From Oscillospiraceae bacterium (GTDB lineage: Bacteria; Bacillota; Clostridia; Oscillospirales; Oscillospiraceae), in assembly GCA_022846075.1 (NCBI GenBank), contig AP025582.1, positions 124,001 through 188,000 of the forward strand: a DNA stretch of 64,000 nt, given 5' to 3'. Position 1 is the first letter of the stretch; each line of letters begins with the position of its first letter. Positions 16,329 to 28,229 of the stretch are shown in pieces. The notes beneath the pieces are model-generated. The model had not been told where the DNA came from, did not search any database, and worked only from the letters and a program-made list of their open reading frames with translations. The translations under genes were made by a program, and so were the position numbers.

Positions 16329-18464
16329 ATGAAGGACGGCCGCTATTTTGAGGGAATGAACCTGTACAGCTCCGGCGTGTTCGACGCCGTGGTCCACTTT
16401 CAGGAAGAGGGGCTCATGATCGCCTACGTGGATCAGCGGACCCGCTTTCTCCAGACCCCCACCGCCCCCTGGGTCCAGGATTTTGTCGTCATGGACCTGG
16501 CCGGCATCCAGAAGAAGTGCCCGGAATACCTGGCGGCCCGCTGGGAGGGGGAGCGGGTGGAGCTCCCCTGCGGCGACGTGTACAGCCGCCACATCACCTA
16601 TGAGGATCAGACGGGCCGCGTCTCCCAGGTGTGGGCCCAGCGAAACGCCGATCCCGCCCTGGACATCATCACCCTGGAGGGGGAGGTCATTGCCTTCCTC
16701 ATGAGCAACCGCTACGGCATGGAGGTGGTGGTCCGCCCCGGCTGTGAGGATCTGACCCCCCTGGTCCAGTACAGGACCGATCCCCTCCTCTCCCAGCCGG
16801 TCTACGGGATCGACTGCCTGGGCATCCAGCAGTGCGCCATGCGGGACGGGGTGAAGCTGGCCCAGCGGGTCTATCTGCCCCAGGGCGGCCAGCCGGGCCA
16901 GAAGTGGCCCACCATCCTGGTGCGCTCCTGCTACACCAAGGAGCGCTTCGGCTATAAGCTGTCCAAGTACGTCAACAAGGGCTATGCCCTGGTGATGCAG
17001 GACGTGCGGGGCCGGGGAGACTCCGAGGGAGATCTGGACCCCTTCGCCTACGAGCGGGACGACGGCAGCGACACCATTGACTGGATCGTCTCCCAGCCCT
17101 GGAGCGACGGAAACGTGGGGATGTGGGGGGCCTCCTACCTGGGCCACGTGGTGGTCCAGGCGGCCACCAGCGGAAACCCCCACCTGAAATGCGTCATCGA
17201 CGAGGTGAACGTGGGCTCCCCCTTCATCGACACTGTGCGCCGGGGCGGGGCCCTCTGCTCCCAGCCCCTGCTGTGCTGGGCCCTGGCCCAGTCCAGCGGC
17301 CAGCGGCCCAATATGTTCTATATGTCCGACACGGTAGACTGGGCTCCCATGATGGACATCCGCCCCCTCTCCTCCCTGGCGGAGAAGGTGCTGGGCACGC
17401 CCAAGAACGACCTGTGGAAGAAGTGGACCACCCACGACGAGGAGAACGCGTGGTGGCAGCGCAGCGACTTTACCCGGAACTTCCACCGGGTGAAGGTCCC
17501 CATGATGGTCATCAGCGGATGGTATGACGGGGACGGCCTGGGGGTCAGCGAGACCTGGCGGGGCCTGACCAAGTACGACGTACCCGGCCGCCGGATCGTC
17601 CTGGGGCCCTGGGAGCACGGCCCCAACACCACCCGGGACGTGGAGGGCGTGGCCTTCGGCAACAACGCCATCATCTACAACTTTGACATCAATAACCTGC
17701 GGTGGTATGATTATTACCTGAAAGGGATCCAAAACGGCATGGACGGGGAGCCCCGGGCCACCTACTACGTGGTGGGGGAAAACCAGTGGCACACCTCCGA
17801 TGACTGGAGCCCCGCGGAGGCCAAGATGACCTGCTGTTACCTGGACAGCGACGGCCGCGCCAACTCCTGCTGGGGGGACGGCCGCCTGGAGTGGGAGAAC
17901 CCCGCCCAGGAGGGCTCGGACACCTACCACTATGATCCCCAGACCCCCTTCTCCGATCTGGTCTCCGAACAGGTGGGGCACCGCTCCCCCATCAACTACA
18001 AGGGCCATGAGTCGGGGGAGGATATGCTGGTCTACACCTCCAAGCCCCTGGAGCGGGACGTCATCCTGGCGGGGGAGATCTCGGCGGAGTTCTTCGCCAG
18101 CTCCTCGGCCCTGGATACCGACTGGATCCTGCGCCTCACCGACGTGGACGAGGAGGGCAACTCCCGCCAGCTGTCGGAGAACATCATCCGGGCCAAGTTC
18201 CGGGACGGCTTTGAGACGGCCAAGCTGCTGGAGCCGGGCAAGGTGGAGCGCTACTTCCTCCAGATGGAGAGCAACGGCTGGCGGCTGGCCAAGGGGCACC
18301 GGCTCCGGGTCCAGGTGCAGTCCTCCAGCAAGAACCTGGTGTTCCCCAACACCAACACCGGGGACAGTCCCTTCGAGGACATGGGCTCGGTGGTGGCGGT
18401 CAACAAGATCTACCACGGCGGGCGCTACCCCAGCCATATCAATCTGCCGCTGATCTTTTGCTGA
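16329..18464 (+). CDS. CocE/NonD-type alpha/beta hydrolase (X-Pro dipeptidyl-peptidase-like)
   Basis: Serine hydrolase of 711 aa. The region from about residue 165 on is an alpha/beta hydrolase of the CocE/PepX family: VQDVRGRGDSEGD-like (MQDVRGRGDSEGD), the nucleophile motif GMWGASYLGHVV, an acid region VISGWYDGDGLGVSE and the catalytic His in VLGPWEHGPNTT. The C-terminal ~200 residues form the jelly-roll domain of this family. The first ~160 residues are an extension I do not recognise. Relatives remove X-Pro dipeptides or cleave esters and amides. Next to a dipeptide uptake operon, a peptidase role is plausible but not shown. No signal peptide is visible, so it should act inside the cell. 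Confidence 0.85.
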   Translation: MKDGRYFEGMNLYSSGVFDAVVHFQEEGLMIAYVDQRTRFLQTPTAPWVQDFVVMDLAGIQKKCPEYLAARWEGERVELPCGDVYSRHITYEDQTGRVSQVWAQRNADPALDIITLEGEVIAFLMSNRYGMEVVVRPGCEDLTPLVQYRTDPLLSQPVYGIDCLGIQQCAMRDGVKLAQRVYLPQGGQPGQKWPTILVRSCYTKERFGYKLSKYVNKGYALVMQDVRGRGDSEGDLDPFAYERDDGSDTIDWIVSQPWSDGNVGMWGASYLGHVVVQAATSGNPHLKCVIDEVNVGSPFIDTVRRGGALCSQPLLCWALAQSSGQRPNMFYMSDTVDWAPMMDIRPLSSLAEKVLGTPKNDLWKKWTTHDEENAWWQRSDFTRNFHRVKVPMMVISGWYDGDGLGVSETWRGLTKYDVPGRRIVLGPWEHGPNTTRDVEGVAFGNNAIIYNFDINNLRWYDYYLKGIQNGMDGEPRATYYVVGENQWHTSDDWSPAEAKMTCCYLDSDGRANSCWGDGRLEWENPAQEGSDTYHYDPQTPFSDLVSEQVGHRSPINYKGHESGEDMLVYTSKPLERDVILAGEISAEFFASSSALDTDWILRLTDVDEEGNSRQLSENIIRAKFRDGFETAKLLEPGKVERYFLQMESNGWRLAKGHRLRVQVQSSSKNLVFPNTNTGDSPFEDMGSVVAVNKIYHGGRYPSHINLPLIFC

Positions 18465-18496
18465 GCGGCGGAGCAAAGCGAGGAGACGATCATCTG

Positions 18497-19186
18497 ATGG
18501 CGGAGCTTGAACATTCCTTTTCCCTCGACAACATCAAGAGCATCCTCAAGTCCATGGCCGAGCACTTCGGCCCCGAGTGTGAGGTAGTGCTCCACGACTT
18601 CAGCCAGGGCTATGAAAACAGCGTGGTCGCCATCGAAAACGGCCAGGTCACCGGCCGGAAGGTGGGCTCCTCCATCACCACCAGCGGCCTGGAGACCCTG
18701 AGCAGCGAGTCCGACCAGCTGGGCGACGGGCTCTACAATTACATCACCACCGGGCCGGACGGCAGGATCATCCGCTCCTCCACCGCCCTGCTGCGGGACG
18801 GGGAGGGCAGGATCTTCGGCTCCTTGTGCATCAATCAGGACATCACCCAGCTCTGCCAGGCGGAGAAGGTGCTCCACGGCCTCACCCGCTACGGCAGCGA
18901 GCGGGACATGAACGAGCTGTTTGTCCAAAACGTGGACGAGCTGCTGGACCACTATATGCTTCAATGCACCCACCTCATCGGGCGGGCGCCCGGGGACATG
19001 AACAAGGAAGAGCTGGCCCGGGCCTTGGACTTTTTGGAGAGCAAGGGGGTATTCCGCATCAAGAAAGCGGGAGACCGGGTCTGCGAGACCTTCAAGATCA
19101 CCAAATATCAGCTGTACCACCATCTGGACATCATCCGCAGCAAGGGCTGCGGGGAGGATGACGAGGCGGAAAAAGCGGCGGAGTGA
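18497..19186 (+). CDS. YheO-type PAS/helix-turn-helix transcriptional regulator
   Basis: Regulator of 229 aa. The N-terminal part is a YheO-like PAS domain (HFGPECEVVLHDFSQGYENS, then LRDGEGRIFGSLCINQDIT). The C-terminus has a short DNA-binding region with CETFKITKYQLYHHLDIIR, as in DauR, the regulator of D-arginine catabolism. The start at 18497 follows GAGGAG; the Met 13 codons earlier overlaps the hydrolase stop. It is co-transcribed with the CocE-type hydrolase and divergent from the peptide operon, so control of one or both units by an amino-acid-like ligand is a reasonable inference. Confidence 0.85.
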   Translation: MAELEHSFSLDNIKSILKSMAEHFGPECEVVLHDFSQGYENSVVAIENGQVTGRKVGSSITTSGLETLSSESDQLGDGLYNYITTGPDGRIIRSSTALLRDGEGRIFGSLCINQDITQLCQAEKVLHGLTRYGSERDMNELFVQNVDELLDHYMLQCTHLIGRAPGDMNKEELARALDFLESKGVFRIKKAGDRVCETFKITKYQLYHHLDIIRSKGCGEDDEAEKAAE

Positions 19187-19198
19187 GGCCCCGGCAAA

Positions 19199-19246
19199 AG
19201 GCGTCCATGGACGGCAGATCTGCCGTCCATGGACGCCTTGTTTTTT
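19199..19246 (+). terminator. Rho-independent terminator
   Basis: A 19-bp arm (AGGCGTCCATGGACGGCAG region) pairs perfectly with its complement across a tiny loop and is followed by TTGTTTTTTG. It lies directly after the YheO-type regulator gene. Confidence 0.93.
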
Positions 19247-19296
19247 GTGTTGCGTTGAAATTGGTCCGCCGGCCAGATTGGCGGCGGGGGAGCGGG

Positions 19297-20811
19297 TCAG
19301 GGCCGCTGGGAAAGGGGGGCCTTTTTCCGCCCCAGGGCACAGCCCAGGCAGGCGGTGAGAAGGGCAATGCCCATCCCGATGAAGAGCGGGTCCACGGGGG
19401 AGCCCAAAAGCTGCCCCAGCAGGACGCCCAGTGGCCCTCCCAGGGTGCACAGCAGGGCAAACCGGCGGTCCATCCGCCCGGGGAGGAACAGGGCGCAGCT
19501 GAGGGGGACGAAAACCACGGCCCCCCGCAGGCCCATGGACAGGAACCCGAAGTCGTTGATGGTGGCCGAGGGCACCACGCAGGCGATGACCGCCGAGACC
19601 GCCAGCACGGCCAGAATGGTCCCCCGGGTGGCGGCCAGGTTGGCCGCGGCGGAACGGAACCGGGTGGATATCGTCTGGAAGATGTCGTTGACCAGGATAG
19701 TGGCCACGCCCAGGGAGAGGCCGGCTCCGCCGCCCACCACGGTGATGAGAAGGGTGCCCAGCACGATCCCGGCGAACAGGACGGGAAGATGGTTGACCAC
19801 AAAGGTGGGAAAGACCTGGATGGTGGAGGCCAGGACCCCCATCCCCTGAGGCATGGCCTGCCCCGCGGCCAACAGGGCGTCGGCCTCGGCCTGGGTGATG
19901 TAGTGGGCCCGCATGAAAACGCCCACGGCGATCCCGGCGGCCCCCACAGGGGGGATAAGCCCGGCGGCCAGCAGGCCCCCCCGCCGGGCGGCGCGGTCAC
20001 TGCTGCCGGACCAGACGGCCTGGGCGTAGGTCTGGGTGGAGAGCACCCCCAGCAGGAGGGAGAGCCCCGAGCCGATGTCCTTTGCGGCCCCCCGGGCAAT
20101 CAGGCTGGTGTACCGGGCGGTCAGGTCGGACACGGTCTCAATCCCCGCCGCCGTGCCCTGGGCCGTCCCGATGAGGGCGGACTGGAGGCCGGCCCACAGC
20201 CCGCCGGGGCCCCCGGAGAGGAACAGGACCGCCGCCAGGGCCGCGATACAGGCCATGTAGAGGAGCACCAGTTTGACGATGCCGCCGATCCCGGCGCCCC
20301 AGGCCCCGCCGAAGACCACGTAGACTGCCATGAGGAGCACCGACAGGGCGGCCGCCGCTGGGAGGGACAGGGGGAAGATCACGGTGATAAGCCCGGTGCA
20401 GGCCACCACCTGGGCCAGAACGGAAATAAAGATGCCGATGGAGCTGAGGACGGAACCGGCGTATTCCACCGTGTGGCCGTACTCCTGATCGATGACACCC
20501 ATCAGGGTGGTGTGGCCGCCGCGGCGCAGGGGGCCCGCGTAGCCTAGGGCCAGGATAAGGCACCCCAGGCCGGAGCCCAGAGTGAACCACCAGGCCGCCG
20601 CCCCGAAATGGAAGGCCAGCTGGGCCGTGCCGATGCTGGCCTGGCTGGAGACCAGGGCCCCCATGATGGTGCCGCAGATCATCCAGGGCCCGGACCGGCC
20701 CCCGCCGGTGGCGAAGTCGTCCGCCGACTTCACCTTGCGGCCGGAGCGGACGCCCACCCCGATGATGAGCAGCAGGACCAGGATGACACCGAGATAATTC
20801 AGCGCTGTCAT
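19297..20811 (-). CDS. Sodium:solute symporter family (SSS) transporter
   Basis: Membrane transporter of 504 aa with about 13 hydrophobic segments and the N-terminal family signature RKVKSADDFATGGGRSGPW (cf. S.DFxxAGR). Later features are GGAWGAGIGGIVKLVLLY and LGVLSTQTYAQAVWSGSS. SSS proteins import sugars, amino acids, acetate, proline or urea with Na+. The substrate here is unknown; the gene stands alone beside the remnant of another gene. AAGGGGG precedes its ATG at 20811. Confidence 0.88.
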   Translation of the reverse strand: MTALNYLGVILVLLLIIGVGVRSGRKVKSADDFATGGGRSGPWMICGTIMGALVSSQASIGTAQLAFHFGAAAWWFTLGSGLGCLILALGYAGPLRRGGHTTLMGVIDQEYGHTVEYAGSVLSSIGIFISVLAQVVACTGLITVIFPLSLPAAAALSVLLMAVYVVFGGAWGAGIGGIVKLVLLYMACIAALAAVLFLSGGPGGLWAGLQSALIGTAQGTAAGIETVSDLTARYTSLIARGAAKDIGSGLSLLLGVLSTQTYAQAVWSGSSDRAARRGGLLAAGLIPPVGAAGIAVGVFMRAHYITQAEADALLAAGQAMPQGMGVLASTIQVFPTFVVNHLPVLFAGIVLGTLLITVVGGGAGLSLGVATILVNDIFQTISTRFRSAAANLAATRGTILAVLAVSAVIACVVPSATINDFGFLSMGLRGAVVFVPLSCALFLPGRMDRRFALLCTLGGPLGVLLGQLLGSPVDPLFIGMGIALLTACLGCALGRKKAPLSQRP

Positions 20812-21171: not shown

Positions 21172-21195
21172 TAAAAATACATTCATGTATGTTTA
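21172..21195. promoter_or_regulatory. Putative TetR operator before tetR
   Basis: A 24-bp palindrome with one mismatch per arm surrounds the core ATACATTCATGTAT. It lies just upstream of the -35 of the tetR-type gene. The 18-base string ATACATTC[A/T]TGTATGTTT recurs at 21882-21899 before the carbamoyltransferase gene, which supports a shared operator. Confidence 0.65.
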
Positions 21196-21200
21196 ATGTC

Positions 21201-21229
21201 TTGACAACGGTTTTCAATACGGATAAACT
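21201..21229 (+). promoter_or_regulatory. Promoter of the tetR-type gene and possibly the operon
   Basis: TTGACA and TAAACT with a 17-bp spacer lie 27 bp before the regulator start. AAGGAGATAAGAGT then provides the ribosome binding site. The palindrome at 21172-21195 lies directly beside the -35. Confidence 0.72.
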
Positions 21230-21255: not shown

Positions 21256-21858
21256 ATGGCTAGGCAGCATAATTCAAAAGAGACGCGGGAGATGTTGATC
21301 GATTCCGCGGTCGAAATATTTTTGAACAAAGGGTATTCCAAGACCACGCTGGAGGACATCGTGAAAAACGTGGGCCTCACCAGAGGTGCGTTTTATTGGA
21401 GCTTTAAAAGCAAGAAGGAAATTTTGGACGAGATCGTGAACCGGTACGAGAAGTTCTATGTGGATATCTATGGGCGTTATCCGCATGAAGACTCGGCCTA
21501 TTCCACGCTGCGGGGCTTTCTCCTTCTGAACTTGCAGAAGAAAAACGCCCTGAACCCCTATGTGACCATTATCCGTTACAAGGTAGAGGCCAGCGAGGAG
21601 CTGACGGATCTCAAGGAGCGGCAGGCCAAGCTGGATAACCACTTTTTAAAGATCATTGAGGAAGAGATCGGTAGAGGACAGGCGCAGGGGGAGTTCAGAA
21701 CCGACAGACCCGCCGGTTTTCTGGCGCTTACCCTCTATACGTATCTGCTGGGCTTTGACACGTTCAACACAGTTCATTATTCCGACAAAAAGGGTCAGTT
21801 TATTTCGGAAGAAGAAATTGAAACCTATGTTGATTTTTTGTTAAACACCCTAAAATGA
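21256..21858 (+). CDS. TetR/AcrR-family transcriptional regulator
   Basis: Repressor-type regulator of 200 aa. The N-terminal DNA-binding domain is clear: ETREMLIDSAVEIFLNKGYS then TLEDIVKNVGLTRGAFYWSF. The C-terminal ligand-binding half resembles AcrR-type proteins (RGFLLLNLQKKNALNPYVTI). Its base composition is lower in GC than the flanking operons. It lies 61 bp before the carbamoyltransferase gene in the same direction, and the same palindromic motif occurs before both, so it probably represses itself and the catabolic genes until an inducer (perhaps the pathway substrate) binds. Confidence 0.92.
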   Translation: MARQHNSKETREMLIDSAVEIFLNKGYSKTTLEDIVKNVGLTRGAFYWSFKSKKEILDEIVNRYEKFYVDIYGRYPHEDSAYSTLRGFLLLNLQKKNALNPYVTIIRYKVEASEELTDLKERQAKLDNHFLKIIEEEIGRGQAQGEFRTDRPAGFLALTLYTYLLGFDTFNTVHYSDKKGQFISEEEIETYVDFLLNTLK

Positions 21859-21878
21859 AGGGTTAAAATTTTGCCTAT

Positions 21879-21898
21879 AACATACATTCTTGTATGTT
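21879..21898. promoter_or_regulatory. Putative TetR operator before the carbamoyltransferase gene
   Basis: The palindrome AACATACATTCTTGTATGTT (one mismatch per arm, TC centre) occupies the 61-bp gap between tetR and the carbamoyltransferase gene. It shares 17 of 18 bases with the site at 21177-21194. A TATAAC just upstream could be a -10, but no good -35 is seen. Confidence 0.65.
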
Positions 21899-21919
21899 TG
21901 TGGAGAAGGAGAGAATGGT

Positions 21920-23053
21920 ATGAAAAACGGTTCGCTGAAGGGAAAACACTTTTTGACACTGGAGGACTTTACGCCTGAGGAGCTCAGATATCTCCTGGAC
22001 CTGTCCATCCAGCTGAAGCGGGAGAAAAAGGCGGGTATTGACCAGAAAAAGAACATCGGCAAAAATATGCTCCTGCTGTTCGAGATGGAGTCTACCCGAA
22101 CGAGATGCTCGTTCGAGACCGCCGCGCCCGACCTGGGCATGGGCACTACTTACCTTTCCAACTCCCACTTTGGGACCAAGGAGACGATCAAGGATTCCAT
22201 GCGGGTGTTTTCCGCAATGTACGACGTCATCGCCTACCGGGGGATGGAGCACGAGCAGCTGCTGAAGATGGCCGAGTATTCCACCATTCCCATCATCAAC
22301 GGCTACACGATGCATGAGCACCCCACCCAAATGCTGGCCGACTTCATGACGCTGGATGAAGTCTACGGCCGGGAGGGGTACAAGGGAAAGACCTTTGTCT
22401 ACATCGGCCGGGGCGGCGCCTGCTGCGCGTTTTCTTATGCGGTGGCCTGCGCCATGTTCGGTATGAACTTCAAATTTATCACTTCCTTTATGTCTTTGGA
22501 GGAGGCCGTCTCCCGGCTCACCAAGGAGGAGCAGGAGACCTTCTATAAAGAGGTCCCCAAGGGCACCCGGATCGACGGCTGGTCCGGCGCCATGCCGGAG
22601 GAGCAGAAAAAGTTTGTCCGGGAGCTGTACGCGAAGTACAACCCTCAATGCACCTTCACCGAGACGGAGGACGTGAACGAGATCAAGGGCGCGGACGTGG
22701 TGTCCACCGAGAATTGGGGCTTCTTTACCAACAAGGCCATCACCTGGCTGCCCGGCATCGTCAAATACAAGGACTATCAGGTTAACCGGGAGCTGATGGA
22801 GCGGACGGAAAACCCGGACGCCATCTTCATCCACATGCTGCCCGCCACCCACAACGCCGACCACAGCGGGGCGAGAAAGCTGGTGGACTCCATCAGCGAT
22901 CCCGAGCTTAAAAAGTTCCTGGAGAAAGGCTTTGAGGTCACGGACGAGGTGTTCGAGGCCAACGCCGAGTACATTTTCCGCGAGGCTGAGAACCGGCAGC
23001 ACACCATCAAGGCCGTGACCTATGCCGTTATGGGCAACGACGCCGAGGGATAA
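21920..23053 (+). CDS. Ornithine carbamoyltransferase-like protein with altered substrate site
   Basis: Carbamoyltransferase of 377 aa related to OTC (usual length 310-340). In a catabolic role it would split a carbamoylated amine to carbamoyl phosphate. The carbamoyl-phosphate motifs are present: STRTR (58-62), HPTQ (134-137) and AENRQHT (356-362). The known ornithine-binding motifs of E. coli OTC are not: the DxxxSMG loop reads STENWGFF (262-269), HCLP reads HMLP (305-308), and the GDARNNMG segment reads GRGGACCA (163-170). About 30-40 extra residues lie near 190-235. I start at the Met at 21920, after AAGGAGAG; the Met ten codons earlier has no site. Gene neighbours (deiminase, carbamate kinase, antiporter) match an arginine-deiminase-like pathway, but the amine acceptor is probably not ornithine or putrescine. 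Confidence 0.85.
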   Translation: MKNGSLKGKHFLTLEDFTPEELRYLLDLSIQLKREKKAGIDQKKNIGKNMLLLFEMESTRTRCSFETAAPDLGMGTTYLSNSHFGTKETIKDSMRVFSAMYDVIAYRGMEHEQLLKMAEYSTIPIINGYTMHEHPTQMLADFMTLDEVYGREGYKGKTFVYIGRGGACCAFSYAVACAMFGMNFKFITSFMSLEEAVSRLTKEEQETFYKEVPKGTRIDGWSGAMPEEQKKFVRELYAKYNPQCTFTETEDVNEIKGADVVSTENWGFFTNKAITWLPGIVKYKDYQVNRELMERTENPDAIFIHMLPATHNADHSGARKLVDSISDPELKKFLEKGFEVTDEVFEANAEYIFREAENRQHTIKAVTYAVMGNDAEG

Positions 23054-23122
23054 GCGCAGGCGGCAGCCGGCGCGCGGCGGCTTTGCCGCGGAGGGCCCGA
23101 GAGATATGAAGGAGGAGCCAAT

Positions 23123-24475
23123 ATGTACTTATTAAGCCTCATTCCCATTATGGTCGCCTTTGTTGTCATCATAAAGACAAAGCGGGCGTTTGAATCCTGC
23201 GTTCTGGGCGTTGTTGTCGGGATCGTCATTTACTCCTTTCTGAACGGCGACTGGAACATCCCCGTGCTGTTCTACAATTTCCTGGCCGACACCAGCAGTT
23301 CTCCCGGAAATATGTGGGTCATCATTTTCACGCTGGCCATCGGCCCCGTGACCCAGATCCTTTTTGATTCCGGAGCCACCAAGGCCTTTACCAACTGGGT
23401 CACCCGGAAGTTTGCCAACAACGATAAAAAGTCCTTGATTTCCATCATCCTTCTGGGTATCGTGGTCTATGCGGACGAATTTCTGAAGGCCGCGGTCCTG
23501 GATTCCTACGGCAAGTCCATCGGGCACAAAAACCGGCTGCCGGTCGAGACGGTGGGGATGATGATCCTCTCCCTGTGTATTCCTCTGGTCAGCTGGATCC
23601 CCATGGCCACGTGGTCGGTCTATTTCGTGCAGCTGATGGAGAGCTCCGGGTTTACCAACAACGGCACCTTGGACTTTGTCACGAAGGTCATGCCGTTTAT
23701 GTTCTTCCCCATCATTCTCACCCTGATCATCGTCCTCTTTGCCTTGGGGATCGTCCCCGGCTTCGGCAGCGTCAAAAAGGCCATGCGGCAGGTCAAGGAC
23801 GGGACCTATGATTTTTCCGTCTATGGTGTGGAGGATGCGGACGCCAAGGAAGAGGGCAAGGTCAAGCCCTTTGATTTCGTGGTCCCTCTGGCGGTGCTTC
23901 TGGCCATCGGCATCTGGAACAACGGCGATTTGGCCGTGGCCTGCCTCCTTGTGATCGCCTTTGAAATGGTGTGGTTCCTGGCCAGAGGGCTCATGAGCTT
24001 CGGTGAATTTATGGACAGCCTTTGGAAGGGCATGTTTTCCACCTTCCGCCCCACGGTTTACCTCATGTTCGGCTTTACCTTCACCGCGGTGCTGAAGCTG
24101 ATCGGCTTCCCGGAGCTGGTGCAGGTCATTGCCAGCACCCTGGTGCCCGGCGCGGTCTTGCTCTTCTTCTTTGTGTCCGCCACAGCGATCGGGACTCTGA
24201 CGGGAATGTTCTGGCCCGCCACCTCCATGTTTATGGCCGCCTGCCTGCCCATTGCCACCGAAATGGGCATCAGCCCCTTCCTCCTCTCCGCGGTCCTGTT
24301 TTCCGCCGCCACCTTCGGCACGGTGCTCAGCCCCCGCGGCGCGCTGGTCATGTTTATCGGCGAGGAGCTGAACTCCAATCCCGTGGACCTGATGAAGAGT
24401 GAACGTCCCTACGCGCTGATCGCCGGCGGACTGACCGCCGTTATTTATCTGATCATGGGGTTTGTGATCCTTTGA
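23123..24475 (+). CDS. NhaC-like Na+/H+ antiporter family transporter
   Basis: Membrane protein of 450 aa with about 11-12 hydrophobic segments, resembling the NhaC antiporter family. Features include LGIVVYADEFLKAAVLDSYG, RLPVETVGMMILSLCIPLVS and GTLTGMFWPATSMFMAACLP. NhaC relatives move Na+/H+ or exchange organic substrates such as malate/lactate or basic amino acids. It sits directly between the carbamoyltransferase and deiminase genes, the position usually taken by the arginine/ornithine or agmatine/putrescine exchanger in similar operons, so substrate/product exchange is a fair inference. GAAGGAGGAGCCAAT precedes its ATG. Confidence 0.75.
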   Translation: MYLLSLIPIMVAFVVIIKTKRAFESCVLGVVVGIVIYSFLNGDWNIPVLFYNFLADTSSSPGNMWVIIFTLAIGPVTQILFDSGATKAFTNWVTRKFANNDKKSLISIILLGIVVYADEFLKAAVLDSYGKSIGHKNRLPVETVGMMILSLCIPLVSWIPMATWSVYFVQLMESSGFTNNGTLDFVTKVMPFMFFPIILTLIIVLFALGIVPGFGSVKKAMRQVKDGTYDFSVYGVEDADAKEEGKVKPFDFVVPLAVLLAIGIWNNGDLAVACLLVIAFEMVWFLARGLMSFGEFMDSLWKGMFSTFRPTVYLMFGFTFTAVLKLIGFPELVQVIASTLVPGAVLLFFFVSATAIGTLTGMFWPATSMFMAACLPIATEMGISPFLLSAVLFSAATFGTVLSPRGALVMFIGEELNSNPVDLMKSERPYALIAGGLTAVIYLIMGFVIL

Positions 24476-24512
24476 TCGGCACCATAATTGAAAATGAAAG
24501 GTTGGATTTGCT

Positions 24513-25751
24513 GTGAGTGATAAAAATACGTTCCGATACGCCGGCGAGTTTGAGGAGCAGGAGGCCGTTATCATCGGCTGGCCCCGCATCATCGAGCCCG
24601 TGAAGGGGATGTATACCGAGGCCGTGATGCACGAAGTGGTCAAGAACCTCATCGGCCAGGTGGAAAAGGTCATCATCAACTGCGGCTGGCCGGGGACCTA
24701 TGACCGCTGCCGCGAGATCCTGTCGGAGGGCGGCATCGATCTGAACGACGTCATCATTACCCAAATGCCCGACATGATGCACTGGGCCCGTGATTACGGC
24801 CCCGATATCATGAAGAACGACAAGGGCGAGATGCGGCTGGTCCACTTCCGCTTCGACATGTACGGCATGGGGGAAGAGGACAGCGAAATGTCCACCATGT
24901 GCAAAAAATACGCGCCCCATATGGCCATTGAGATGGGCTGTTATGACATCCTGGAGTCCTGCCTGATCTCCGAGGGCGGCGACAAGGAGTTCAACGGCGC
25001 CGGGGTCATGATGGCCATCGAGGACACCGAGGTCAGAAAACGCAACGGCGGCATGACGAAGGAAGAGGTCGAAGCCGAGTTCAAGCGGGTATTCAACCTG
25101 AAAAAGATCATCTGGCTCCCCCTCTGCCACTGGGAGGAAGAGGCCTCCACCATCGGCGTGCTGGACTACGTGGATGGAAAGCCCGTCTACCGCTCCGGCT
25201 CCGCCAACGGCCATATTGACGAGCTGGCCCGCTTCGTGGACCGAAATACCGTTCTCCTGCTGGACGTCGACGAGGAGGAGGCGGCGGCTCTGGAGTCGGC
25301 CCGCGTCACCAAGGAGCGCTGCGACATGGCTTACGAGGTGCTCAAAAACGAGACCGACGCCGAGGGGAACCCCCTGAAGATCATCCGGATCCCCGCCCCC
25401 ATCCCCGAATATATCGTCACCACGCCCGACGATTGGACGAACAGGACCTGGGGCAAGCGGTTTGCCGAGAACGAGGCGCCCCTTCTGGACGACGGCACCC
25501 CGATGCCTGAGGGGGAGATCATCATGCAGCCGGCCATGAGCTACATCAATTATCTGGTCTGCAACAAGGTTGTCATCGCCCAGTGCTACTGGAGAGAGGG
25601 AAAGTCCGAGGCCATCCGCAAAAGGGACCAGGAGGCCATGTCCGCCCTGCAGACCGCCTATCCGGATCGGAAGATCGTTCCGGTCTATTCCATGGCACTG
25701 AACATCAGGGGCGGCGGTATCCACTGCGCCACCAAGAACATCCAAAAGTAA
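24513..25751 (+). CDS. Agmatine-deiminase-like guanidine-modifying enzyme
   Basis: 412-aa member of the PAD_porph/agmatine deiminase family, which hydrolyses a guanidino group to a ureido group and ammonia. Catalytic residues align with agmatine deiminase: Asp in WARDYGP (91-97), EGG (154-156), His and Asp in GHID (233-236), and the Cys nucleophile in GGGIHCAT (400-407). The protein is longer than true AgDI (about 365 aa): a ~20-25-residue insertion (WEEEASTIGVLDYVDGKPVY, 207-226) lies just before the catalytic His, and another longer segment lies at 300-335. The start is a GTG at 24513 with only a weak upstream site. With the altered carbamoyltransferase this suggests a guanidino substrate other than agmatine. 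Confidence 0.85.
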   Translation: MSDKNTFRYAGEFEEQEAVIIGWPRIIEPVKGMYTEAVMHEVVKNLIGQVEKVIINCGWPGTYDRCREILSEGGIDLNDVIITQMPDMMHWARDYGPDIMKNDKGEMRLVHFRFDMYGMGEEDSEMSTMCKKYAPHMAIEMGCYDILESCLISEGGDKEFNGAGVMMAIEDTEVRKRNGGMTKEEVEAEFKRVFNLKKIIWLPLCHWEEEASTIGVLDYVDGKPVYRSGSANGHIDELARFVDRNTVLLLDVDEEEAAALESARVTKERCDMAYEVLKNETDAEGNPLKIIRIPAPIPEYIVTTPDDWTNRTWGKRFAENEAPLLDDGTPMPEGEIIMQPAMSYINYLVCNKVVIAQCYWREGKSEAIRKRDQEAMSALQTAYPDRKIVPVYSMALNIRGGGIHCATKNIQK

Positions 25752-25788
25752 CGCCCCTGGGGGATAATGGCAGGAGCGGCAGCGGCCG

Positions 25789-25819
25789 CAGCCCGGCGGC
25801 AGGCGCAGCCGCCGGGCTG
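25789..25819. terminator. Intra-operon hairpin
   Basis: A 12-bp perfect inverted repeat (CAGCCCGGCGGC and its complement) with a 7-base loop lies in the 124-bp gap between the deiminase and YjiH-type genes. No T run follows, so it may modulate rather than stop transcription. Confidence 0.5.
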
Positions 25820-25875
25820 AAGCGGCGCGCCGGGTGGATGCACAGGTGCGGAGCGCCTTTCGGAGGAGATAAGCG

Positions 25876-27222
25876 ATGAGCTCAAAAACAAAAACGGTTT
25901 TAAAGTTGATGATTCCTTCCCTCATCGGCATCATCCTTTTTCTCGTCCCGGTCAATTACCGGGGCGAGTCGGAAATCGTTGTCGGCATTATCGCCAATGG
26001 GCTCAAGTCCGCCCTGGGCGGAGCTTTGATCCCCCTGCTCACCGTCCTCACCGTGGGGTCGGCGGCGCTGTCCCTGCTGCACAGAATATGCCCCCTCCCC
26101 TTCTTCTCCCGCCACGAGGCGCTGAACAGGCTGTTTTCCCCCAATCTCTTCTGGCTGGTGGTCCGCACCCTGGGCGGAGCCATCACTCTGCTGGCGTTTT
26201 TTAGGCTGGGACCCGCTGCCGTCTGGTCGGCGGACACGGGCGGGAACATGCTCACAACCATTCTGCCCAGCTGTGCGGTGTGGTACCTGGTGGGTGGGCT
26301 CCTGCTCCCGCTCATGACGGATTACGGCCTGCTGGACATATTCAGCTCCCTGTTCAAACGCATCTCCCGGCCGCTGTTCAAGGTGCCGGGGCGGGCCATG
26401 CTGGACTGCGTCACCTCTTGGGTCGGCTCCAGCGTGTGCGGCATTTACCTTACCATTTCCCAGTATGAGGGCGGCTTTTATAACGCGCGGGAGGCCGCCA
26501 TTATCAGCAGTAATTTTTCCCTGTTAAGCATCAGCTTTTGCTCCATGATCGCCGCCATGCTGGGCCTGGGGACGATGTTCGGCAGGTTTTATCTGACCAT
26601 AGTCGCCGCGGGCGTCATCTGCGCGGTCATTACGCCCCGGCTGTGGCCCCTGCGCGGGATCCCTGAGACCTATGACGCGGTCAGCGGCAGGCAGGTCGAC
26701 GAGGAGGCCCCGCGGAACATGAGCAACCTGCGGTGGGGATACCGACAGGCCCTAAAGCGCGCGGAGGAGGCGCCCGGCTTTTTGGAATTTTTGAAAAAAG
26801 GCGTGACCACGGCGGCAGACCTCACGCTGAACACAATGCCCGTCATCATGGCCTTTGGGACCATCGCGCTGATCGTTGCCAACTATACCCCTGTCTTTGA
26901 CTATCTGGGGGTCCCCCTGGGACTGTATCTGAAAGTCTTCAGCGTGCCTGACGCGATGGAGGCGGGCTCCGCCATTCTGGTGGGGTTTGCCGACCAGTTT
27001 ATCCCCGTCGTGATCGGCTCGGCATTCTCATCCCTATTTACCAGGTTTGTGGTTGGCTGCTGCTGTATCCTGCAGATTCTTTATATCACCGATATCGGCG
27101 CCCTGGTCCTGACCTCCCGGATGCCCTTCAACCTCTGGCAGATGTTCGTGGTTTTTCTGGAGCGGATCGTCATCAGTATTCCGATCGTAGTCCTGTGCGC
27201 GAACCTCTTCGGCATCGCCTGA
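25876..27222 (+). CDS. YjiH-type membrane transporter with nucleoside-recognition (Gate) domain
   Basis: Membrane protein of 448 aa with about 10-11 hydrophobic segments, of the YjiH/nucleoside-recognition GATE group. The N-terminus KLMIPSLIGIILFLVPV and the core WVGSSVCGIYLTISQYEGG...REAA are shared with a second family member at 34850-36193 in this window. In E. coli, yjiGH accompany the isoaspartyl dipeptidase gene iadA, so amino-acid or peptide transport is suspected for the family. Here it lies between the deiminase and carbamate kinase genes and may import the pathway substrate. GGAGGAG lies 7 bp before its ATG. Confidence 0.8.
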   Translation: MSSKTKTVLKLMIPSLIGIILFLVPVNYRGESEIVVGIIANGLKSALGGALIPLLTVLTVGSAALSLLHRICPLPFFSRHEALNRLFSPNLFWLVVRTLGGAITLLAFFRLGPAAVWSADTGGNMLTTILPSCAVWYLVGGLLLPLMTDYGLLDIFSSLFKRISRPLFKVPGRAMLDCVTSWVGSSVCGIYLTISQYEGGFYNAREAAIISSNFSLLSISFCSMIAAMLGLGTMFGRFYLTIVAAGVICAVITPRLWPLRGIPETYDAVSGRQVDEEAPRNMSNLRWGYRQALKRAEEAPGFLEFLKKGVTTAADLTLNTMPVIMAFGTIALIVANYTPVFDYLGVPLGLYLKVFSVPDAMEAGSAILVGFADQFIPVVIGSAFSSLFTRFVVGCCCILQILYITDIGALVLTSRMPFNLWQMFVVFLERIVISIPIVVLCANLFGIA

Positions 27223-27287
27223 TCCGAAGTCAGCGGCCGCTTTCTTCGCCGCGGCATATGCCCAAATTTCAGCGAGGAGAATAAGAA

Positions 27288-28229
27288 ATGCCTAAAATCG
27301 TCATTGCCCTGGGCGGCAACGCCCTGCAAAGCAAAAACAGCGAGCCCACGGCGGAAGCCCAGCTTGCTGTCGTCAGAAAGACCTGCGAGTACATCGCGGA
27401 AATCAGCGCCAGCGGCTACGAGCTGGCCATTGTCCACGGCAACGGCCCCCAGGTCGGCCGGATCATGCTGGCCGGAGAGACCGCCAGGGATGTGGTGCCC
27501 GCCATGCCCTTCGACGTCTGCGGCGCCATGAGCCAGGGCTATATTGGTTATCATATTCAGCAGGCGCTGCGGTATGCCCTGGCCAAGTGGAACAAAAACA
27601 TCCCCGTGGTCAGCATCGTCACGCAGATGGTGGTTGAGCGGGACGACCCCGCCTTTGCCAATCCGACCAAGCCCATCGGCGGCTTCTATACCCGGGAGGA
27701 GGCCGAGGAATTGACGGCCAGCAAGGGGTATGTGATGAAGGAGGACGCCGGCCGGGGCTACCGGCGGGTGATCGCCTCTCCGCTTCCCCGGAAAATCGTG
27801 GAGATCGACCAGGTCCGCCAGCTTTGGGACAAGACCATCGTGATCACCTGCGGCGGCGGCGGTGTCCCGGTGGTGGAAAATATGGACGGCACGCTGGAGG
27901 GCGTGGAGGCGGTCATCGACAAGGATTATGCCGCCGAGCTCCTGGCGGAGCAGATGGACACCGACGCGCTGATGATCCTTACCGAGGTGGAGATGGTCTC
28001 CATTCACTGGGGAAAGCCCAATCAGCAAAATCTGAGGCATATGTCCCTGGCGGAGGCCGCCCGCTACGTACAGGAGGGACATTTCGCACCCGGCAGTATG
28101 CTGCCCAAGGTGCAGGCCTGTATGAATTTTGTGCGCTCCAACCCGGGAAAGAAGGCGATCATTACCTCGCTGGACCATGCGGTTGACGCCTTGAAAGGCA
28201 CGACGGGCACCGTCATCACATTTGCTTGA
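27288..28229 (+). CDS. arcC: Carbamate kinase
   Basis: Transfers phosphate from carbamoyl phosphate to ADP, giving ATP, CO2 and ammonia: the energy-yielding last step of arginine- and agmatine-deiminase pathways. At 313 aa it has the normal length. Motifs are KIVIALGGNALQ at the N-terminus, AIVHGNGPQVGRI, VVEIDQVRQLWDKTIVITCG-like central strands (EIDQVRQLWDKTIVITCGGG) and VIDKDYAAELLAEQ with the conserved Lys/Asp. It is the last gene of the operon and follows the YjiH-type gene by 65 bp with a GAGGAGAATAAG site. It fits conversion of carbamoyl phosphate from the OTC-like enzyme into ATP. Confidence 0.95.
   Translation: MPKIVIALGGNALQSKNSEPTAEAQLAVVRKTCEYIAEISASGYELAIVHGNGPQVGRIMLAGETARDVVPAMPFDVCGAMSQGYIGYHIQQALRYALAKWNKNIPVVSIVTQMVVERDDPAFANPTKPIGGFYTREEAEELTASKGYVMKEDAGRGYRRVIASPLPRKIVEIDQVRQLWDKTIVITCGGGGVPVVENMDGTLEGVEAVIDKDYAAELLAEQMDTDALMILTEVEMVSIHWGKPNQQNLRHMSLAEAARYVQEGHFAPGSMLPKVQACMNFVRSNPGKKAIITSLDHAVDALKGTTGTVITFA

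Follow-up and report, generated by a model that had tools for sequence, protein, structure and literature searches.

A six-gene operon of an Oscillospiraceae bacterium probably encodes three enzymes that act in series on a guanidino compound which is neither arginine nor agmatine. The operon spans positions 21256-28229 of the 64,000-nucleotide stretch of DNA that was analysed (hereafter the window), and its genes, all of them open, intact and on the + strand, encode in order a TetR-family regulator, a carbamoyltransferase (CTase), an NhaC-like carrier, a deiminase (DEI), a YjiH-like carrier and a carbamate kinase; the corresponding Pfam matches are TetR_N, OTCace_N with OTCace, Na_H_antiporter, PAD_porph, Gate and AA_kinase. 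Arginine and agmatine are generally known as the two standard cases in which ATP is gained by deimination and transcarbamylation, as one published account also has it (PMC3282769). Judged from its PAD_porph, OTCace and arcC matches, the enzyme set of the window is predicted to be complete for this chemistry. An initial annotation of the sequence had described a co-directional six-gene operon with a complete deiminase, transcarbamylase and carbamate kinase set, and both claims are borne out by the intact reading frames, the domain matches and the conserved catalytic columns reported below.

We infer the direction of the reactions, the transport roles and the repression by TetR as follows. The TetR-family protein would control the operon, and the carriers would bring the guanidino compound in, release the amine, or do both. 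In the first enzymatic step the PAD_porph-type deiminase would convert the guanidino group to a ureido group with release of NH3, the CTase would work in the catabolic direction and split the ureido compound with Pi into an amine and carbamoyl phosphate, and carbamate kinase would use the latter to form ATP, CO2 and NH3. Candidate substrates, which the data do not rank, include a guanidino acid such as 4-guanidinobutyrate, an N-acylated or conjugated agmatine and an arginine analogue (homoarginine, D-arginine or canavanine).

Family assignment of the two substrate-handling enzymes

The comparisons cover 28 loci: the window, Enorma burkinafasonensis (L017), Candidatus (Ca.) Fournierella excrementigallinarum (L018) and 25 further loci (L073-L097). 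The 28 DEI rows exclude the more distant proteins of L098 and L044-L046, and the column counts also exclude a 469-residue PAD protein of L077; the 27 CTase rows exclude the CTase of L096, which is cut by a contig end to fewer than 200 residues. Reference rows are few, comprising five AguA (one apparently inactive), six ornithine transcarbamylases (OTC) and three putrescine transcarbamylases (PTC).

The DEI of the window matches PF04371 only, with no match to PF02274, the family of the arginine deiminase ArcA. It scores 147.7 bits with the AguA model TIGR03380, below the curated cut-off of 381.8, and none of the family DEIs in 26 genomes exceeds this cut-off (best 155.4 bits); its identity to the AguA of its own genome is 33%. 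The CTase reaches 249.9 bits with the OTC model TIGR00658 (cut-off 280.85), 185.3 bits with the PTC model TIGR04384 (cut-off 500) and 45.4 bits with the YgeW model TIGR03316 (cut-off 500), and is 34% identical to the PTC of its own genome. As controls, that true PTC scores 550.2 bits against the cut-off of 500 and the OTC of locus L048 scores 406 bits.

Phylogenetic trees place both enzymes accordingly. The 27 full-length CTases form one clade (support 98/93) apart from OTC, PTC and YgeW in a tree of 43 rows, and in a tree of 38 rows the 28 DEIs form one clade (90/90) that excludes AguA as well as three PAD proteins whose N-terminus is hydrophobic. Some backbone forks are weak; support at the root of the CTase tree is 54/20, and the tool warned of long branches there. 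The initial annotation had named a tight grouping with AguA/AguB or ArcB as the result that would speak against a new substrate, and the separate clades are the opposite of that. The titles and abstracts of the literature searched, open-licence papers only, do not describe this pair subfamily.

Catalytic and substrate-recognition residues

The pentein catalytic residues D94, H234, D236 and C405 are kept in all 28 DEIs, as are R93 and E154, which we take to be functional columns. The residues that hold the substrate differ. In MtAIH the terminal amine is contacted by Asp89 through water and by Asp220 directly, according to PMC6447857. The Asp89 column holds Ser (13), Asn (11) or Met (4, including the window) in the 28 DEIs and Asp in none of them, compared to Asp in all five AguA rows, and the residue following the EGG[DN] motif is Lys or Arg in 28/28 DEIs but in 0/5 AguA rows. 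Two arginines, R113 (7/28 rows) and R227 (6/28), are type A candidates for binding a substrate carboxylate by analogy with PPAD, where R152 and R154 are described in this role (PMC4487231).

The CTases likewise retain the framework of their superfamily. The substrate-contact map in Table 1 of a review (PMC4581275) gives the transcarbamylase motifs as SxRT, HPxQ and HxLP, and STRT, R117, HPxQ, HxLP and R369 are kept in 27/27 sequences, which therefore carry the superfamily motifs. The ornithine contacts of OTC, as given in the published contact maps (PMC4581275 and PMC3282769), lie at Asn, Asp, SMG and Lys positions, the Lys two residues before STRT pairing with the ornithine carboxylate. All of these are replaced. 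The equivalent of OTC Asp231 and PTC Asp227 is Glu in 27/27 CTases compared to Asp in 9/9 references; the column of OTC Asn and PTC Gln holds neither residue in any of the 27, with an Asn one column further on in two type A' rows; and the position two before STRT is Met (6, M66 in the window) or Trp (21) as opposed to Lys in OTC and Gln in PTC. The loop that reads SMG in OTC and YGLY in PTC is GFFT in type A (ENWGFFT in the window), and HCLP is replaced by HMLP in 17 and HELP in 10 CTases. The PTC 230-loop signature (Y/W)(G/W)(V/L/I)x and the C-terminal extension are absent from all 27, and the loops of type B CTases are rich in acidic residues, which might hint at a polycationic amine. The changed recognition residues argue against both agmatine/putrescine and arginine/ornithine as substrates. 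The view of the initial annotation that both enzymes depart from their arginine and agmatine versions thus holds at two levels, that of the changed recognition columns and that of the missed AguA, OTC and PTC cut-offs.

Pairing and sub-clades

A CTase gene lies in the DEI cluster at 28/28 loci, directly adjacent to it in 23 and separated by one carrier gene in five (the four type A loci and L092). The identity matrices of 27 CTase/DEI pairs correlate with r = 0.97, a value that none of 2000 permutations reached. This co-divergence, expected for genes travelling together, demonstrates joint movement of the pair and is no proof of serial action. Carbamate kinase is found in or near the cluster at 8/28 loci (the window, L018, L074, L077, L079, L080, L083 and L084), several of the stretches stopping at contig ends.

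The sub-clades differ in their carriers. Type A (the window, L017, L018 and L073) has the NhaC-like carrier in 4/4 loci and the YjiH-like carrier in 3/4, its place after DEI being taken by an ArcD-like permease in Enorma; type A' (L074, L075) has a YfcC-like carrier; and type B (L076-L097) has a carrier of the major facilitator superfamily (MFS) in 22/22 loci by tblastn, all six of those scanned being MFS_1 and the three scanned with NCBIfam being distantly lactate-, bile-salt- or oxalate-like. Probably the sub-clades of the DEI/CTase pair serve different guanidino compounds.

Two further proteins lie next to PTC-like genes. In genome G1173 (L098:8203-10562) a fringe deiminase, 34% identical to the DEI of the window, has as its neighbour a PTC-like CTase whose motif reads HFLP; the pair possibly represents an intermediate or a further specificity. 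In genome G1026 the 469-residue PAD_porph protein (L077:4731-6140) sits between two PTC-like genes in an agmatine-type neighbourhood, on a branch longer than 4.

Gene order was also followed into other genomes, as the initial annotation had proposed, and it recurs. Ca. Fournierella (L018) has all six genes in the same order (62, 86, 70, 77, 62 and 52% identity), G1173 (L073), which like Enorma belongs to the Coriobacteriia, keeps the order for five, and Enorma (L017) for four, namely TetR, CTase, NhaC and DEI, followed by the ArcD-like permease. The TetR proteins of these three loci are 59-62% identical to that of the window. Because the order recurs in L018, L073 and L017, the grouping of the genes goes beyond chance.

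Distribution and transfer

Beyond what the initial annotation had claimed, the pair is widespread in Coriobacteriia, the class of Enorma, and coexists in carrier genomes with ordinary agmatine or arginine genes. Within Coriobacteriia 24 of 396 genomes match at E <= 1e-30, in 27 places, the weakest at 1.6e-83. In the class of the window, 1/391 genomes matches at E <= 1e-40, and this is the window's own genome. The taxonomic family of the window yields 12/200, made up of the own genome and 11 with nothing better than E 1.1e-20, and the three genomes of the same genus among those listed give no match. Since 24/396 genomes in one class contrast with 1/391 in the other, the pair family seems to have its home in Coriobacteriia and to have been acquired by the genome of the window and by Ca. 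Fournierella. The operon was thus probably acquired horizontally from another bacterial class, and it is from genome counts that we infer the transfer, its direction and the difference in class. The GC content of the operon is 0.575 compared to 0.647 for the rest of the window; this is a weak sign of transfer, because the homologous operons of L017, L018 and L073 also lie below the GC content of their surroundings.

Mobile elements give little further information. The best places in 55 plasmid records are all below 60% identity (28.7% for the best among the matches listed, named aguA), the best in six phage records is 25.0%, and no relative was found in viral contigs. One plasmid, of Loigolactobacillus backii, carries in its agmatine operon a second aguA (L102:8135-9244) with the catalytic Cys changed to Thr and His to Asp in the alignment, which, as far as the alignment indicates, may be an inactive paralogue. 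A search of 398 genomes of the own phylum returned the own genome and three distant PAD_porph deiminases whose N-terminal region contains a hydrophobic stretch (L044:8459-9622, L045:7867-9057 and L046:3204-4415). Their matches to DEI, at E of about 1e-52, are stronger than that of the own AguA to DEI, at about 1e-24, and no counterparts of the CTase, carrier, regulator or kinase were found in their surroundings.

Ordinary agmatine and arginine pathways in the same hosts

A complete agmatine operon of the ordinary kind lies at about 1.409-1.415 Mb in the 3.23-Mb genome of the window, with an aguA of 591.8 bits, an APC-family carrier, an NhaC-type carrier, the PTC already used as a control (DVWYGLY, HCLPATR) and a carbamate kinase of 355.5 bits, slightly below the arcC cut-off. 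At about 286.9-292.2 kb (L105:2886-8243) the same genome encodes a YgeX-type diaminopropionate ammonia-lyase, a YgeY-type hydrolase, a YgeW transcarbamylase (804.6 bits, cut-off 500) and a third arcC. AguA above its cut-off accompanies DEI in 15/26 genomes, the own included, and G1173 combines types A and B and that of L098 with such an AguA.

The two closest relatives hold the arginine pathway. Enorma shows six ArcA matches, five of them near-full-length and one weak, and Ca. Fournierella has one ArcA, in an arcA-OTC-arcC cluster with a YfcC-like carrier. About 11 kb of the Enorma genome (G971, L099:6731-17904) hold four ArcA-type genes, one of them, a divergent copy (30%), lying on the opposite strand, along with two each of OTC-like CTases and YfcC-like carriers.

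Alternative explanations

Arginine and agmatine, taken together, make a doubtful but real alternative as the substrate. The operon might be a second, divergent agmatine deiminase operon whose isozymes suit other agmatine concentrations or conditions, which we regard as quite unlikely. DEI does belong to the AguA superfamily, 11/26 DEI genomes lack an AguA above the cut-off, Enorma and Ca. Fournierella among them without any other PAD_porph enzyme, and the fringe deiminase of L098 adjoins a PTC-like CTase; however, the genome of the window already has its agmatine operon, AguA coexists with DEI in most of the DEI genomes, and both the amine-holding Asp of the deiminase and the PTC signatures of the transferase are missing throughout. 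A second operon of Eggerthella lenta, a possible member of the pair family, was not induced by agmatine (PMC10234575). The operon of the window might instead serve arginine, with a PAD_porph enzyme standing in for ArcA and an unusual ornithine transcarbamylase as its CTase. This is unlikely, too. It would account for the own genome having no ArcA and no PF02274 match, for the OTC models giving the CTase its top score and for the ArcD-like or YfcC-like carriers of Enorma and L074/L075, but Enorma and Ca. Fournierella possess ArcA in addition to the operon and every ornithine-contacting position of OTC is replaced. That DEI and CTase work on separate molecules, or that the operon provides acid or ammonia homeostasis or detoxification rather than ATP, is highly improbable; an NhaC-like carrier within the operon and the small number of loci with a carbamate kinase would suit it, while the presence of a CTase in every cluster and the tight co-divergence are counted as pointing to consecutive steps, and in the window the kinase belongs to the operon.

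A number of observations weigh against a substrate other than arginine and agmatine. The CTase falls only 31 bits short of the OTC cut-off, and the Enorma ArcD-like permease (435 of 591 bits) and the YfcC-like carriers of L074/L075 point to arginine- or ornithine-like molecules. The window's genome, Enorma and Ca. Fournierella each hold one ordinary pathway, and it is only jointly that they speak against both substrates. The counterpart of MtAIH Asp220, a position four residues ahead of the His, is S230 by residue count only, the alignment being gapped there, and the AlphaFold models of the two enzymes are poor (pLDDT 38.3 and 46.9, from alignments of three similar rows), so that their pockets are not legible. 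Ca. Fournierella is placed differently within type A in the CTase and DEI trees, and the E. lenta operon is no more than a possible member of the pair family.

Features of the operon and its predicted control sites

Table 1. Coordinates of the genes and predicted control sites in the window
Feature	Position	Strand	Basis
Palindromic operator-like site TAAAAATACATTCATGTATGTTTA	21172-21195, core ATACATTCATGTAT 21177-21190	none	Directly 5' of the -35-like box before tetR
Sigma-70-like promoter of tetR, TTGACA-17-TAAACT	21201-21229	+	Consensus match only
TetR-family regulator, probable repressor	21256-21858	+	Best NCBIfam models AcrR/MtrR, far under their cut-offs
Second operator-like palindrome, imperfect	21880-21897	none	Between tetR and CTase coding start
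CTase, new subfamily	21920-23053 (ORF listed from TTG 21890)	+	OTCace_N + OTCace; HMLPATHN, TENWGFFT and FEMESTRT motifs
NhaC/Na_H_antiporter-family carrier	23123-24475	+	In 4/4 type A loci, 69-75% identity
PAD_porph-family guanidino deiminase (predicted), new subfamily	24513-25751	+	D94, E154, H234, D236, C405
YjiH-like membrane protein (Gate domain), candidate substrate/product carrier	25876-27222	+	62% identity in L018, 55% in L073
Carbamate kinase arcC	27288-28229	+	NCBIfam TIGR00746, 401.7 bits (cut-off 358.25)

The core pattern of the first palindrome, with at most one mismatch allowed, has three matches in the window, two of which are the two strands of the site itself, compared to a mean of 0.00 in 100 shuffles. 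Sigma-70-like sites number eight in an 8-kb stretch, where 3.0 are expected. A similar palindrome occurs 5' of tetR or between tetR and the CTase gene in 6/6 type A and A' loci, that of L075 being a variant, and L017 and L018 each have two at positions matching those of the window. The more likely start of the CTase is the ATG that follows GGAGAAGGAGAG rather than the upstream TTG, because the latter falls within the second palindrome, whose inner part spans 21882-21895.

The operon is flanked by genes for a CocE/NonD-type hydrolase, a YheO-like PAS regulator and an SSS symporter (16329-20811) and for a polysaccharide deacetylase. No matches to the flanking genes were found in the examined stretches of L017, L018 and L073, and the hydrolase, PAS regulator and symporter are therefore probably unrelated to the operon.

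Relation to known pathways and implications

With the agmatine deiminase pathway (aguBDAC) the operon shares the inferred three-step chemistry, the deiminase, CTase and kinase superfamilies and the layout; it differs in lacking the Asp89 column, the PTC 230-loop and the C-terminal extension, and in its carriers. The arginine deiminase pathway (arcABC with ArcD or ArcE) resembles it in the OTC-leaning CTase, the carbamate kinase and the ArcD- or YfcC-like carrier of three relatives, but the deiminase of the window is of the PAD_porph type and not ArcA, and the OTC SMG loop, Asn, Asp and Lys are replaced. The YgeW cluster is alike in setting a catabolic-type CTase near a carbamate kinase and unlike in that YgeW is a separate clade; the substrate of this knotted transcarbamylase was not established as of 2015, according to a review of that year (PMC4581275).

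A clue comes from E. lenta DSM 2243, a member of the Coriobacteriia. As described in PMC10234575, this strain has two complete and two partial agmatine operons. Agmatine had its strongest inducing effect on two copies of PTC, on one deiminase and on a transporter, but no differential expression was seen for genes in the second complete 'agmatine deiminase' operon; the authors suggested a wrong annotation and/or a related compound. In the 4.0-Mb Coriobacteriia genome G1026 (L077), a stretch of 18 kb holds both a type B pair and agu genes of the ordinary kind, an arrangement that resembles this description.

We see an even chance that Coriobacteriia, together with a few recipients by transfer, possess a family of unrecognised ATP-yielding pathways, in which the sub-clades A, A' and B each have their own pocket, carrier and guanidino compound and the enzymes are likely misnamed agmatine deiminase or ornithine carbamoyltransferase. 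If this is true, the carriers of such pathways, 24 of 396 sampled genomes in that class, would draw energy from further guanidino compounds, perhaps derived from the diet, the host or drugs, and the automatic names of the enzymes of the DEI/CTase family are likely wrong. Should the E. lenta operon belong to the family, this would offer a possible explanation of why a second 'agmatine' operon is not induced by agmatine.

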